From Devosia equisanguinis (GTDB lineage: Bacteria; Pseudomonadota; Alphaproteobacteria; Rhizobiales; Devosiaceae): DNA of 64,000 nt. The first letter of the stretch is position 1. Each line of letters begins with the position of its first letter. A program made the translations under genes and the position numbers. The stretch lies in NCBI RefSeq assembly GCF_900631955.1, contig NZ_UZWD01000038.1, positions 62,001 through 126,000 of the forward strand, given 5' to 3'. This document shows, piece after piece, positions 15,999 through 33,314 of this stretch. Under the pieces are notes generated by a model. It was given only the letters and a program-made list of their open reading frames with translations. It was not told where the DNA came from and did no database searches.

Positions 15999-16523
15999 TT
16001 GAGAAGATTATTTTTCCGCGCGGCAGCTGCGCTTGCCGTCGCCGCAGTCGTTATTCCTGTCTATGCCCAGCATGCCGGGGGCGATGCAAAGCCCCCCGTC
16101 ATCGGTGACCTGCCAGAAGTCGCGCCAACCGAGCAAGTTTCCTCGGATAGCATCGACACGTCCGAGCGGACGATCTGGGACGGTGTGTTTACTGCCGAAC
16201 AGGCTGCCGCTGGTGCGCCGCTCTATACCCAGTATTGCCAGGGTTGCCATGGCAAGACCGGTCGCGGCACTCCGGGCGGTCCGGGCGTGACAGGTGCCAA
16301 CCTCAACAAGAAGTGGGAAGAGACCTCTCTTCTGGACTTCTACACCTTTGCCCGCACCAACATGCCGCCCGGCAATGCCGGCAAGATCGGCTCGGAACAG
16401 GACTACGTGAATATCGTGGCCTACATCATGGAATTGCATGGTGCCGAACCGGGCGACAAGCAGCTGGTCTGGAACGAGGAACAGTTGGGTAACATCTACA
16501 TCGTGCGCAAGCCGAAAGACTGA
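15999..16523 (+). CDS. Periplasmic class I cytochrome c (putative PQQ-dehydrogenase electron acceptor)
   Basis: A 174-residue exported cytochrome. From the TTG at 15999 the protein starts LRRLFFRAAAALAVAAVV, a clean signal peptide, with GGAGG at 15987-15991 seven bases upstream; longer frames break the signal peptide. The haem motif is CQGCH (Cys80, Cys83, His84) and the likely axial Met lies in RTNMPPGNAG (Met122). It directly precedes the quinoprotein dehydrogenase gene, like xoxG or mxaG beside their dehydrogenases, so it probably takes electrons from reduced PQQ. Sequence between signal and haem domain is Pro/Ser/Thr-rich. Confidence 0.88.
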   Translation: MRRLFFRAAAALAVAAVVIPVYAQHAGGDAKPPVIGDLPEVAPTEQVSSDSIDTSERTIWDGVFTAEQAAAGAPLYTQYCQGCHGKTGRGTPGGPGVTGANLNKKWEETSLLDFYTFARTNMPPGNAGKIGSEQDYVNIVAYIMELHGAEPGDKQLVWNEEQLGNIYIVRKPKD

Positions 16524-16592
16524 TTTTTACGTGCCTACCAACCAAAAATGACGTGCGGGTTATCCGCGCGCCTCTGCCACTGAGGGAAGAGA

Positions 16593-18356
16593 ATGAAATC
16601 CAAAATCTCCGTGTTGCTGGCATCGGCTGCGATGCTCAGCGTGAGCACTGTCGCCTATGCGCAGGTCGATATCAGTGCGTTGCCGATGGTGACGGACGAG
16701 ATCCTGGCCAATCCGGATGCCGGCGATTGGCCGTCCTATGGCCGCGATGTGATGAACTATCGCTATAGCCCGCTCGACCAGATCAACAAGGACAATGTCG
16801 GCAACCTGACCATGGTCTGGGGCCGCGCCCTGGAGCCGGGCAATCTGCAGTCCGCTCCGCTGGAGTTCGGCGGCGTAATGTTCATCGCCGCTCCTGGCGA
16901 CGTGGTGCAGGCTATCGATGCAGCCACCGGCCAGCTGGTGTGGGAATATCGTCGCACGCTGCCCGACCGCGAGACACTGAACTCGCTGGGTGAGAACAAG
17001 CGCGGCATCGCGCTCTATGAAGACAAGATCTACATGGTCTCCTGGGACAACTTCATCGTTGCCCTCGACGCCAAGACCGGCCAGGTGGCCTGGGAAAGCG
17101 ATCGTGGCGGTGGCGCCGACATGATCTCCAACACCACCGGTCCGATCGTGGCCGATGGCGTTGTCGTTGCCGGCTCGACCTGCCAGTTCTCGGAGTTCGG
17201 CTGCTATGTGACCGGTCACGACGCTGCTACCGGTGAAGAACTCTGGCGCAATACCTTCATTCCGAAGGCCGGCGAAGAGGGTGACGACACTTGGGGCGAC
17301 TCCACCGAAGACCAGCGTTGGATGACCGGCGCCTGGGGCCAGATGACCTATGACCCGGTAACTGGCCTCGTCTTCTACGGTTCCACCGGTGCCGGCCCGG
17401 CTGCCGAATTCCAGCGCAATACCGTTGGCGGCACGCTCTATGGTTCGAACACTCGCTTCGCAGTGAAGCCGAAGACCGGCGAGATCGTATGGCGCCACCA
17501 GGTTCTGCCGCGCGACAACTGGGACCAGGAATGTACCTATGAAATGATCCCGGTCGACATCAACTCCAACCCGTCTGCGGACATGGAAGGCCTGCTGGCC
17601 CTTGGCACCGCAACCCCGGGCGAGAAGCGCGTTCTGACCGGCGTGCCGTGCAAGACCGGCGTGATGTGGCAGTTCGACGCCCAGACCGGCGAATTCATCT
17701 TCGCCCGTGACACGGTGCAGGAAAACTTGATCGAGAAGGTCGACGAGACTGGTCTTGTCACCATCAACGAAGCCGCCATCGCCACTGAAGTCGATACACC
17801 GACCTTCATGTGCCCGACCTATCTGGGTGGTCGTGACTGGCCGCCCACGGCCTTCAATCCCGAAACCAAGGTGATGTTCGTTCCGCTCAACAATATGTGC
17901 GCGAACTACACCGTTCTCGACCAGGAGCCGACCGGCCTCGACGTCTACAACACCGAGCTGGAACTGGTAATGCCTGAAGGCGTGACCAATACCGGTCGTA
18001 TCGACGCAATCAATGTGGAAACCGGCAAGACCGTCTGGAGCTGGACTGACCAGACCCCGCTCTATGCGCCGATCGTTTCGACCGGTGGCGGCCTGATCTT
18101 TGTTGGTGGTACCGATCGCAAGTTCAAGGCAATCGACCAGGAAACGGGCGAAGTGCTGTGGTCGACGACCCTGCCGTCTCGCGCTACCGGGCACCCGATT
18201 TCCTATGAAGTCGATGGTCGCCAGTATATCGCGATCCCGGCCGGTGGCCCTGGCTATGCCACGCTGTTCATCGAAGCTTCGGGCACCACTGCCGACACCG
18301 TTTCGGGCAGCAACGCAGTCTATGTGTTCGCCCTGCCTGAGGCCGCTGCCAAGTAA
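16593..18356 (+). CDS. PQQ-dependent alcohol dehydrogenase (methanol/ethanol family), divergent
   Basis: A 587-residue periplasmic quinoprotein with a signal peptide (cleavage near AYA, residue 23) and an eight-bladed propeller with repeated tryptophan-docking motifs such as [29 protein letters not shown] and ETGEVLWS. The predicted catalytic Asp is Asp311 in RDNWDQE and Glu201 fits the first metal ligand. By eye, the Asn metal ligand of MxaF/XoxF (in GxGNP) is replaced in YGSTGAGP. The residue two after the Asp is Glu, not Ala (calcium type) or Asp (lanthanide type). The vicinal Cys-Cys pair is absent. Devosia enzymes of this broad class (DepA and relatives) oxidise deoxynivalenol, but identity with them is unproven. 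Confidence 0.9.
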
Positions 18357-18380
18357 TCGGCTGAGGCTTGCATGATCGGG

Positions 18381-31361: not shown

Positions 31362-32786
31362 CTACTGCTCCCCGCTCTTCACTGGACGGTTGAAATAGCG
31401 CGATACCACCACGCTAGCTTCGGGCGTGATCGCCTGGCGGGTGACGATCTGCGCCATCTGCCGGCTCCAATCGGCGCCCTGCAAACCGTCGAACGTCGCC
31501 GTTTGGCTGGGGTCGGCGCTCGTGGGCATATGCATGCGAATACGACTGCCTTCGCCCACCTGGTCGGCGGCGATCGACATCGACTGCGTCGGATCGGCCA
31601 TGGTTTCGAGAAACTGGCTATTATCGGCGAGGGCCTGCGAGCCGCCGCCGGCGATATTGCTTTCCCCCTTGCCCGATTGTGCGGCAGCGCCGACGGGCAG
31701 GGAGCCTGCACTGGCAAAGGCCTCGTCTTCCATGGGCCGTGCCAAAGTGTCGCCGCCGCCCAGGCTTTCGCTTTGCAACTGGCCCTCGCGGTCAGCGACT
31801 GCGTTTTCATTCGGAGCACTATTGCCTGCCGGTTGGGGCGCTGCGCTGGCAGAAAGGCGATCCTCGGGCAAGGTGTACATGTCGGAGGACGTCACCTTAG
31901 GGCCATCGCCGCGCATTTCCGCCAATCTGGCGCGCTCCTCGGCCGCCTTCTGGCGCGCTGTGCTGAAGGCGAGCGCATTCTGGACCACGCCTGCCGGCTG
32001 TTCGCCCGGCCCGTTCATCCACTCCGGCATTTTTCCCTGATAGCCCGCGGCAGCGTGATCGAGGAGCGCCTGCAATTCGGTTTCGAGTTCAGCCTGGGTC
32101 GCGCCGTTCCGCGCCTTTTCCGCCAGCGATTTGACGGAGTTGGCCAAGGCGGCCAGGTAGTCGCTGTTGCGCCGTTCAGCGTCTTCGGCGACCAGCTCGG
32201 CCAAGACGTCGAGCGCGTCGGCCGTGATCTCAGCGCCTGTATCGGGAGCGTCGATCGCTTGCGGCGTTTCGAGCGATACCTGGACGTTACCGGCGATGAG
32301 ACCGAAGGCGAGGACGGTACCGCAGATCGCCAGCAGCAGGGCTGCCAGGCTGAGGCCCAGCGGCCGCGTCACCAGTGGCACGGCGCGTTTGACATCGATG
32401 TTCTGCGCTACACGACCGGCATTGACCAGCAACGAGCGCACAATAGGACTGTCAACGGCAGACCCAGCGGCAGCAGTGGCCGAAGACAATTGTTCAGCGA
32501 GGCCAAGCCGATGGTCTATGCGCCGCGCGACGATGTCGGGGCGTGTGGTCCGGGCAAGCGCAACCATGCCGATGGCCAAAAGGCTCAACGACAGGCCGCC
32601 GGCAATCAGCCAGCCAGCCTGGGGCCAATTCGGCCCCATGACGAAAATTGCTCCTCCCAGAGCTGCCACGCCAATCGCCAAAGCGGTGATCGACACTGGC
32701 AGCAGACGCGCCACGCTGGCGCGATGCCCGACCGCAGTCAGAACCCTGGAGATCTGACCTGCGTCAGATGCGCTTTGCCCAGACAT
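31362..32786 (-). CDS. DUF4175-like membrane protein
   Basis: A 474-residue protein with two N-terminal membrane helices (SITALAIGVAALGGAIFVMG and LIAGGLSLSLLAIGMVALA), a third near residue 150, and a long hydrophilic Gln/Ala/Ser-rich remainder with helical segments. It resembles DUF4175-type proteins that often precede BatA/VWA genes, but I cannot name it firmly. It is directly adjacent to the VWA gene (no gap), so it is probably part of the same maturation complex. A GGGGG ribosome site precedes the ATG. Confidence 0.6.
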   Translation of the reverse strand: MSGQSASDAGQISRVLTAVGHRASVARLLPVSITALAIGVAALGGAIFVMGPNWPQAGWLIAGGLSLSLLAIGMVALARTTRPDIVARRIDHRLGLAEQLSSATAAAGSAVDSPIVRSLLVNAGRVAQNIDVKRAVPLVTRPLGLSLAALLLAICGTVLAFGLIAGNVQVSLETPQAIDAPDTGAEITADALDVLAELVAEDAERRNSDYLAALANSVKSLAEKARNGATQAELETELQALLDHAAAGYQGKMPEWMNGPGEQPAGVVQNALAFSTARQKAAEERARLAEMRGDGPKVTSSDMYTLPEDRLSASAAPQPAGNSAPNENAVADREGQLQSESLGGGDTLARPMEDEAFASAGSLPVGAAAQSGKGESNIAGGGSQALADNSQFLETMADPTQSMSIAADQVGEGSRIRMHMPTSADPSQTATFDGLQGADWSRQMAQIVTRQAITPEASVVVSRYFNRPVKSGEQ

Positions 32787-32870
32787 CCCCCATGCTCCGC
32801 TCGCGAAGCCTGCTCCATGTGATCGTCTCGATGCGACCTTGCAAAAGAACAGGCTCCGCTGGCGATGGTC

Positions 32871-33314
32871 TTACTGGCCAACCATGGCTGCGAGTTCAGC
32901 AAAGGCGTCCTTGACCTTGGCAGGACCGCGCGCATTGACGATGGCATCGAGATTGGCGGGATCTTCGCCCACGACGATCAGCCCGACCATGGCCATGGCG
33001 AAGTGCGGGGCGCATTTGTAGCCATAGGCACCCGGCACGTCGAAGGTGACGCTGAATTCCTCGTTGATCTTGCCCTTGAACTGGTTGCCGCCCTCGGGGA
33101 ACATGTCCTTGATGGTCTCGGCGTTGTGGCCCTTGTCTGTGGGGATGAACTTGACCGTGTCACCCACAGCGATCTGCAGGAAGTGCGGCTCGAACACCAT
33201 GGTTTTCCCATCGGCGCCCTTGTTGAGCATGTGAACTTCATATTCGGCGGCGGAAATAGACAGTGTGGACGCCAAAACCAGCGACGCGGCAATCAGAATC
33301 TTATGGAATTTCAA
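32871..33314 (-). CDS. Pseudoazurin (type 1 copper protein)
   Basis: A 147-residue exported cupredoxin, with a signal peptide cleaved near SAAEY. The copper ligands are visible: His63 in KGHNAE, and Cys101, His104 and Met109 in [11 protein letters not shown]. Length fits pseudoazurin. It lies 84 bases upstream of the DUF4175-like gene on the same strand. Pseudoazurins and related cupredoxins carry electrons in the periplasm, for example to nitrite reductase or a cytochrome oxidase. Here it could accept electrons from the quinoprotein directly or through the cytochrome c. No denitrification gene is in the window. Confidence 0.93.

Follow-up and report, generated by a model that had tools for sequence, protein, structure and literature searches.

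Gene content of the island

The stretch of the Devosia equisanguinis genome (4.13 Mb) analyzed here comprises 64,000 nucleotides (contig NZ_UZWD01000038.1, positions 62,001 to 126,000; hereafter the window) and carries an island of 15 genes at positions 15999-33314. The island includes a dehydrogenase dependent on pyrroloquinoline quinone (PQQ) and a NitT-type ATP-binding cassette (ABC) importer, which is considered below as a candidate for PQQ capture. Its genes form two converging groups whose ends lie 5 bases apart (Table 1). The plus-strand group runs in the order cytochrome c, quinoprotein, a MxaJ-like substrate-binding protein (SBP1) and an M50-like protein. The minus-strand group begins with pseudoazurin, a DUF4175-like protein, a giant von Willebrand factor type A (VWA) protein, MoxR, a DUF58 protein and an ABC ATPase, and continues with the permease, binding protein and ATPase of the NitT importer (the NitT trio), an ABC-2 permease and a second binding protein (SBP2).

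Every component named in the initial annotation, which had been made from the sequence alone, is present, and the minus-strand genes likely form one operon. The 4-base overlaps said to join most of them were seen at only four of the ten minus-strand junctions. At the remaining six, the neighboring genes are separated by 3, 5, about 16 or 84 bases, abut or, with a binding-protein start at 23499, overlap by 14 bases. The gene called DUF4175-like is present, but its product matched no Pfam or NCBIfam family at 0.001. The ABC ATPase and ABC-2 permease had been described as a PQQ-associated pair; both scored under the cut-offs of the corresponding NCBIfam families, TIGR03864 and TIGR03861 (241.35 bits for the latter). 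The permease frame is 20760-21575, the open reading frame (ORF) at 20737-21609 being in the wrong frame (G+C content at third codon positions 0.43). The S2P-like protein had been called inactive, and indeed the S2P/M50 zinc motif HExxH was absent in all 32 aligned rows, that of the window included. These rows represent 27 distinct sequences, several rows and loci being the same gene retrieved twice under different handles. The protein appears to be a conserved pseudo-protease. The initial annotation had missed the DepA/sorbose dehydrogenase group, the apparent PQQ-scavenging host and the NitT importer as the most informative part of the island.

Table 1. Genes of the island, in window coordinates, with the domain evidence for each.
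Feature	Position	Strand	Evidence and remarks
c-type cytochrome	15999..16523	+	Pfam Cytochrome_CBB3 1.2e-11; ORF opens at 15948, start as in the initial annotation
PQQ-dependent dehydrogenase, DepA/sorbose dehydrogenase type	16593..18356	+	Pfam PQQ 2.1e-60; Sec-type signal peptide by eye
MxaJ/XoxJ-like periplasmic binding protein SBP1	18443..19288	+	SBP_bac_3; TIGR03871 MoxJ_2 35.6 bits, below cut-off 212
M50/S2P-like membrane protein	19285..19893	+	Peptidase_M50 2.7e-5, 24.1 bits, below cut-off 27.2
SBP2, second family-3 binding protein	19899..20756	-	SBP_bac_3 2.8e-9; membrane-anchored N-terminus by eye
ABC-2 type permease (PedC/DrrB-like)	20760..21575	-	ABC2_membrane 1.8e-24; TIGR01247 158 bits, TIGR03861 120 bits, both below cut-off
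NitT-type importer ATPase	21581..22453	-	ABC_tran 4e-31; ntrCD 212 bits, below cut-off
NitT-type substrate-binding protein, candidate PQQ binder	22450..23463	-	NMT1 4e-22; ORF opens at 23499
NitT-type importer permease	23486..24238	-	BPD_transp_1 5.6e-23
ABC ATPase, presumed partner of the ABC-2 permease	24235..25209	-	DrrA 301 bits (cut-off 312); TIGR03864 PQQ_ABC_ATP 227.7 bits (cut-off 302.25)
DUF58 protein (MxaS-like)	25206..26081	-	DUF58 9e-30
MoxR AAA+ ATPase (MxaR-like)	26078..27094	-	AAA_3 4.2e-59, bpMoxR 2.9e-14; query opened 5 codons upstream of the likely start
Giant VWA protein, 1416 aa	27111..31361	-	BatA-type N-terminus 4.6e-7, VWA_2 1e-21
DUF4175-like membrane protein	31362..32786	-	No Pfam/NCBIfam match at 0.001; 21-member alignment
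Pseudoazurin (blue copper electron carrier)	32871..33314	-	TIGR02375 159.7 bits, above cut-off 109.85; first gene of the minus-strand group

The dehydrogenase

The best solved match of the dehydrogenase was 22vi, with 17 differences over 564 residues (about 97% identity; phmmer, counted from the alignment), followed by the sorbose dehydrogenase 4mh1 and by 9m2c, 4cvb and 7wmd. All five were matched at E<1e-200, and the next structure, 1yiq, at 1.5e-58. On this full-length similarity the enzyme is a member of the DepA/sorbose dehydrogenase-type group. The accessible text on 7WMD and 7WMK describes them as DepA, a deoxynivalenol dehydrogenase that is inactive without PQQ. The model for PQQ dehydrogenases of the methanol/ethanol family (TIGR03075) gave 347.3 bits and its cut-off of 480 was not reached; the second-best NCBIfam match was TIGR04528 (acido-empty-quinoprotein; 257 bits, cut-off 650). 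A tree of the dehydrogenases was built from an uneven sample, so the counts used here were taken from genome-wide searches and not from its labels.

Vicinal cysteines, present in XoxF-like rows, are missing from the dehydrogenase clade, and the WDxD of those rows is replaced in it by WDQE (21 of 65 rows, with the window included twice). The motif lies at window positions 17505-17534, where the clade has Glu and XoxF-like enzymes have Asp, which we take to be the lanthanide Asp; many other Devosia quinoproteins also have Asp (WDLD). A lanthanide signature read from the acidic residue after the catalytic Asp was considered and weakened, because the column of the metal-ligand Glu of methanol dehydrogenase, at what we take to be the ligand positions, is not conserved in the clade. 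As a separate observation, 22vi ("ADH-IIG") is a near copy of the window enzyme, and three of the 17 differences are Cys to Ser changes that may have been engineered.

Among the 20 relative loci with the dehydrogenase in view, SBP1 lies beside it in all 20, and the cytochrome, which is likely its electron acceptor, adjoins it in 14.

Conservation of the locus and of the VWA-MoxR module

All 15 genes were found in the same order in three of the eight same-genus relatives examined first (G051, G013 and G037; G and L numbers denote genomes and loci) and also in G129 and G142. The core set was kept in G058 and G016, all on one strand and with two dehydrogenases in tandem, and in G053 and G046 without the NitT trio inside, and the locus of G049 stops at a contig edge. 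The gene set recurs in relatives and is therefore not a product of chance. A lack of conserved order would have spoken against the dedicated oxidation, maturation and transport system proposed in the initial annotation; the order is conserved, and with the recurrence of the gene set that proposal stands.

Near residue 93 the giant VWA protein carries a DxSGxM site, and near residue 962 a full VWA site (metal-ion-dependent adhesion site, MIDAS); residues D93, S95, D962, S964 and S966 are invariant in the eight sequences compared. Its gene is directly preceded by the DUF4175-like gene in most loci where the latter was detected, L126 being an exception. Genome contigs were scanned with a VWA alignment, which confirmed 108 relatives, and the best 80 loci were examined. 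Thirty of these are closer relatives (E<=1e-100: L080-L108 and L126), several of them from genomes already compared. A similar dehydrogenase was in view at 18 of the 30 and, at only 25% identity, at L085; the other 11 showed none, several being contigs shorter than 13 kb. The dehydrogenase was absent from the remaining 50 of the best 80 loci, many of which have MoxR and DUF58. These 50 (L109-L125, L127-L159) hold a distant giant VWA in Firmicutes, Myxococcota, Verrucomicrobia and others, often with MoxR/DUF58, and represent a wide module.

The distribution was then counted in 136 Devosiaceae genomes, of which 47 carry the dehydrogenase at E<=1e-60 and 23 the giant VWA. The VWA is accompanied by the dehydrogenase in each of its 23 genomes (Fisher 2.5e-13), and the giant VWA was found in 15 of 15 genomes with a dehydrogenase of at least 55% identity vs 8 of the 121 others (Fisher 1.4e-14); the genomes are related, so neither value comes from independent trials. 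The DUF4175-like, VWA, MoxR and DUF58 proteins look like an mxa-like maturation module, because the VWA tracks the dehydrogenase. As in mxa clusters, a MoxR ATPase and a DUF58 protein (MxaS presumably being such a protein) lie beside the quinoprotein. The two separate VWA proteins MxaC and MxaL were not found, one giant VWA being present; models for MxaA and MxaK were not included in the search. A maturation role is suggested by this co-occurrence and by published work on MoxR-VWA pairs, which mature metalloenzymes, and on XoxJ/MxaJ, proposed to hold the apo-enzyme for insertion of PQQ and metal, as far as the available portions of that work go.

Some parts of the locus also occur as modules. 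In G133, G175 and a K. robustum plasmid (the latter read from its annotation and a partial VWA match), the DUF4175-like, VWA, MoxR and DUF58 genes were found without such a dehydrogenase in view, and all three have one elsewhere. Conversely, G056, G020, G178, G043 and G014 have the dehydrogenase, the ABC pair, both binding proteins, the M50-like protein and the NitT trio without the VWA module. In the window and many relatives, the ABC ATPase and ABC-2 permease genes are separated by the NitT trio; these two genes adjoin each other in G053, G046, G176, L093 and L098, and also in G138, where the trio lies outside the pair beside pseudoazurin. Pseudoazurin also adjoins the trio in G006, G036 and G140, with no dehydrogenase near.

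PQQ supply

The locus had been called complete, a description that does not extend to the supply of its cofactor. No pqqC match was obtained in the D. equisanguinis genome, and pqqE gave only 47.3 bits against a cut-off of 381.35, a family that also matches below cut-off in 14 of 14 control genomes; pqqA, pqqB and pqqD were not searched for. The genome contains a second quinoprotein, a membrane-bound PQQ dehydrogenase of the glucose/quinate type (mGDH; TIGR03074, 911 bits, cut-off 833). No relative of the PQQ transporter PqqU was found in it. The host seems to be a PQQ scavenger. In the family as a whole, pqqC was found above cut-off in 20 of the 136 genomes and was missing in 30 of the 47 with the dehydrogenase and in 14 of the 23 with the giant VWA (present in 9), and a PqqU relative at E<=1e-20 occurred in one genome.

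Such a way of life has been described in the genus. According to the accessible portions of the respective papers, Devosia A6-243 oxidizes deoxynivalenol only when PQQ is added or a Pseudomonas partner is present, and Devosia SD17-2, for which its authors' search retrieved no pqq genes, acts together with a Pseudomonas that makes PQQ; pqq genes are expressed in the strain of DepA, D. mutans. A 2025 survey, as far as available, placed PqqU in one alphaproteobacterium and considered the class to be mainly PQQ-making, at least in the environments sampled.

The NitT trio was also considered as a marker of PQQ non-producers. In the loci compared first, 2 of 12 genomes whose locus contains the trio carried pqqC, vs 4 of 5 whose locus does not. 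This idea was dropped after a wider genome count, because the 23 VWA genomes broke the pattern (7 with NitT and pqqC, 11 with NitT without pqqC, 2 with pqqC alone and 3 with neither).

The NitT-type importer

The NitT group was defined by a binding protein of at least 57% identity, a limit placed where the listed identities drop from 57 to 48%. It comprises 48 loci in 46 of the 136 genomes, G039, where the protein is in two pieces, having been left out. The dehydrogenase start lies within 15 kb of 26 of these loci, against 0.6 expected for random places in a 4.1-Mb genome, and the linked loci include some without the VWA module. When 385 genomes sampled across the class were searched, only the D. 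equisanguinis genome and four others gave a relative at E<=1e-50.

Other neighbors of the trio were also recorded. A GSDH-like gene, of a family that includes PQQ enzymes, abuts it in G031 (homolog in G181), and a TonB receptor lies beside it in G520 (homolog in G440), the receptor of G520, considered as a possible PqqU, being 24% identical to E. coli PqqU over 138 residues (E 1e-5). As side observations, a relative of the trio with a LigB-type dioxygenase inside was seen at L242:8572-12405 and L243 (by Pfam in L242, by homology in L243), and a gene for an HNH protein similar to restriction enzymes that act on phosphorothioate DNA (66.9 bits, cut-off 180) adjoins the NitT ATPase at L246:216-1091 and in L248, L254 and L255, its family occurring in 5 of 18 loci compared. 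In the island of G120 (contig C15; L213, L214), the search gave no gene for the binding protein between those for the NitT permease and ATPase, its best copy being located on this contig at a distance of about 380 kb.

The importer was compared with PqqT, the PQQ-binding protein known from structures 9B1U and 9B1V. In the parts of the literature available, 9B1V is given as PqqT with PQQ (in the legend of a review figure) and PqqT is reported to bind PQQ at 50 nM; 9b1u and 9b1v are listed under one sequence. The search with 157 residues of this chain gave clear PqqT relatives (E<1e-17; 30-44% identity) in 49 of the 136 genomes, the next matches being at 1e-8 or weaker. In seven genomes (G006, G014, G025, G035, G138, G140 and G180) the weak match was the NitT protein itself (27-31% over about 130-150 residues, E 1e-5 to 1e-7). 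As expected of a PqqT-like capture system, importer genes lie beside the NitT binding protein and the locus is linked to a quinoprotein; orthology by sequence was not found, the D. equisanguinis genome giving no PqqT match at 1e-5.

At these limits, the two groups exclude each other. Among the 136 genomes, 46 have NitT and 49 have PqqT, with no overlap (Fisher 2.8e-12), and inside the genus the numbers are 33 and 29 of 75, again with no overlap (Fisher 5e-11; G141 was placed in the genus by inference). The 47 dehydrogenase genomes comprise 33 with NitT, 7 with PqqT and 7 with neither. PqqT loci can also resemble the island. In G047, the PqqT relative, with its permease and an ATPase, the latter recognized by homology, lies with a TIGR03075-like dehydrogenase (422 bits, below cut-off), a cytochrome c, an ABC-2 permease and proteins of the PQQ_ABC_bind and PQQ beta-propeller families. 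A pseudoazurin is also there and shares 72% identity with that of the window. The same homology matches were obtained in G008, where the cytochrome was not checked with Pfam. No such quinoprotein neighbors were seen at the PqqT loci of G022 and G136. Across these four loci, a nearby ATPase match was found in all and a permease match in three.

Surroundings of the island

To the left of the island, at window positions 145-11538 and 12912-15723, lies a polysaccharide group with a glycosyltransferase, a GH10 protein, two bacterial sugar transferases, a Polysacc_synt protein, Wzy_C and a deacetylase; a ligase/decarboxylase pair in this group resembles exosortase-A-associated families, below their cut-offs. 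At 53131-56607, a 1158-aa ORF has a gene-like codon-position bias and no Pfam match at 1e-8.

Interpretation of the island

The joint explanation that we propose, with about as much credence as doubt, is that the island is the self-contained, periplasmic quinoprotein system of a PQQ-scavenging Devosia with a PQQ-capturing NitT importer. The dehydrogenase, whose family is established, would oxidize secondary alcohols with PQQ and a metal ion, acting on sugar alcohols and, probably, on deoxynivalenol and other mycotoxins of the trichothecene type, and electrons would pass to the cytochrome c and pseudoazurin. The two MxaJ-like proteins and the associated DUF4175-like, VWA, MoxR and DUF58 proteins may act as a chaperone that opens or loads the apo-enzyme, analogous to mxaJ and mxaRSACKL for methanol dehydrogenase. 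From its similarity, the ABC ATPase/permease pair with SBP2 could be a PedABC/Lut-like accessory transporter. The NitT importer, whose genes lie inside the ABC operon, would capture periplasmic PQQ, presumably made by other bacteria, in place of the PqqT importer of other Devosiaceae; its linkage to the dehydrogenase and the absence of PqqT point to PQQ as the ligand. A more far-reaching form of this proposal, held with slightly more doubt than credence, is that the trio is a second, unrecognized family of PQQ-capture importers that replaces PqqT in about one third of Devosiaceae (46 of 136), enables PQQ scavenging in Alphaproteobacteria that have neither pqq genes nor PqqU, and is wired by its operon to a MoxR-VWA module for holoenzyme assembly.

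Several observations weigh against this explanation. The NitT protein is a distant relation of PqqT: its profile matched 9b1u at E 1.7e-7, second after the uncharacterized 3qsl, and the PqqT motifs are absent from it in a motif comparison from which row L262 was left out. Twenty-two of the 48 NitT loci have no dehydrogenase nearby, and for 13 of these the whole genome lacks one at E<=1e-60; 10 of the 46 NitT genomes have pqqC. The exclusion also depends on the identity limit, since NitT relatives of 46-48% occur together with PqqT in G029, G055, G023, G136 and G137, and when all NitT matches at E<=1e-50 are taken, 10 of 62 overlap with PqqT (Fisher 1.2e-5). The seven dehydrogenase genomes with neither importer include G053, G132 and G133, listed as 99% complete. 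Two trees served to control for kinship. On a one-marker tree (36 marker stretches supplied, 34 rows, one per genome), the labels need 11 changes, and of five supported independent pairs differing in NitT, PqqT was opposite in 2-4 and never the same (p 0.125). On an mGDH tree (40 of 40 genomes), there were seven such pairs, opposite in 5-7 and never the same (median p 0.031), which speaks for the exclusion, but this tree holds deep paralogous clades and is a fair but imperfect control. The parallel between NitT and PqqT loci was seen in two of four PqqT loci, G047 and G008, both picked for a dehydrogenase match within about 6 kb of PqqT. For the VWA module, L096, L101, L106 and L126 show the VWA without a dehydrogenase over 22-24 kb each, and the other 24 dehydrogenase genomes (35-40% identity) have no giant VWA, so that the module would serve some quinoproteins and not all. 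There is also the puzzle of why PQQ should be imported past the periplasm, its place of use; PQQ need not cross the inner membrane, because quinoproteins are periplasmic. As with PqqT, capture by the binding protein may be what counts.

Alternatively, the trio could take up what the dehydrogenase forms by oxidation (a keto-sugar, sugar acid or aromatic acid), and the locus would then combine periplasmic oxidation with product uptake, which would make sense of an inner-membrane importer. A LigB-type extradiol dioxygenase lies between the binding protein and the permease in G575 (a 49% relative; homolog in the same place in G410), so that NitT relatives of 48-49% in two genomes flank such a dioxygenase and point to aromatic acids, and in G006 a regulator of the PcaR/PobR family (331 bits, cut-off 284.75) comes after the trio, as do its homologs in G036 and G140. 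However, the NitT protein stays at 57% identity or more beside dehydrogenases that are 35-100% identical to that of the window and should therefore make different products, it also lies beside the GSDH-like gene, which has a different quinoprotein-type fold, and product uptake does not predict the exclusion of PqqT. We consider this reading fairly unlikely. The same degree of doubt applies to the possibility that MoxR, VWA, DUF58 and the DUF4175-like protein form a module of a general envelope-stress or Bat type and simply accompany the dehydrogenase. The distant VWA loci, often with MoxR and/or DUF58 and none of the 50 with the dehydrogenase, would fit it, as would the lack of a nearby dehydrogenase in G133, G175, K. 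robustum and the four 22-24 kb loci, but every one of the 23 genomes with this VWA has the dehydrogenase, G133 and G175 included, and so does the K. robustum plasmid.

Two further alternatives concern the enzyme itself. It is improbable that the dehydrogenase is a lanthanide enzyme and that the ABC and NitT genes, in the manner of lut clusters, handle lanthanides or lanthanophores. The second residue past the catalytic Asp, which is acidic (WDQE; XoxF-like rows have Asp), and the PedABC/Lut-like ABC genes, below their family cut-offs, would agree with it; the non-conserved metal-ligand Glu column of methanol dehydrogenase argues against it. The assays of DepA and KvADH, in the portions of those reports available, used Ca2+. 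An "empty" quinoprotein that no longer uses PQQ would explain the lack of PQQ synthesis genes and the TIGR04528 match, but it is highly improbable: PQQ is reported to be required by DepA and by the KvADHs, which belong to this clade, and 9 of the 23 VWA genomes have pqqC.

If the PQQ-capture explanation is correct, the importer and the MoxR-VWA chaperone may limit the practical use of mycotoxin-detoxifying and sorbose-oxidizing enzymes, and a new type of PQQ capture, for which the locus offers a concrete candidate, would help to explain how bacteria live on a cofactor made by others. The survey saw the class mainly as PQQ makers; among the Devosiaceae genomes with this type of quinoprotein, 30 of 47 have no pqqC match above cut-off.

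Comparison with known systems

The closest known enzymes, DepA/QDDH of Devosia (7WMD, 7WMK) and sorbose dehydrogenase (4MH1), fall in the same clade over the full length and are PQQ-dependent, and Devosia strains described as lacking PQQ synthesis supply their deoxynivalenol dehydrogenases with PQQ from outside. For DepA, a description of the surrounding gene set was not found in the literature examined, and the accessible text places depA and depB on different contigs. In a literature search that left most subscription journals outside, no account was found of how Devosia scavengers capture PQQ, nor of the combination of a sorbose dehydrogenase with MoxR, von Willebrand and PQQ.

The mxa cluster (mxaFJGI, mxaRSACKL, mxaD), as far as its published descriptions were available, shares with the island the clustering of a quinoprotein, a MxaJ-like protein, cytochrome c, MoxR, DUF58 and VWA proteins. 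Unlike it, the window has one giant VWA in place of MxaC and MxaL, together with the DUF4175-like protein, and adds the ABC pair, the NitT trio, pseudoazurin and the pseudo-protease, in a genome where no PQQ synthesis was found. The PedA1A2BC/Lut systems, in the portions of their descriptions seen, likewise place an ABC-2 permease and ATPase beside a quinoprotein cluster, whereas the pair of the window scores below the family cut-offs (Table 1), a family-3 binding protein takes the place of PedA1, and no match to the PQQ-associated beta-propeller family was obtained among the window proteins scanned.

PqqU (YncD), the TonB-dependent PQQ transporter of E. coli, also serves PQQ scavenging, but it is an outer-membrane protein. 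PqqT of Methylobacterium extorquens (9B1U/9B1V) is the periplasmic PQQ binder already known. The PqqT relative of G047 is of the NMT1/SsuA type, like the NitT protein, but the two differ in motifs and are distant in sequence, and at the limits used here (at least 57% identity for NitT, E<1e-17 for PqqT) they never share a genome among the 136.

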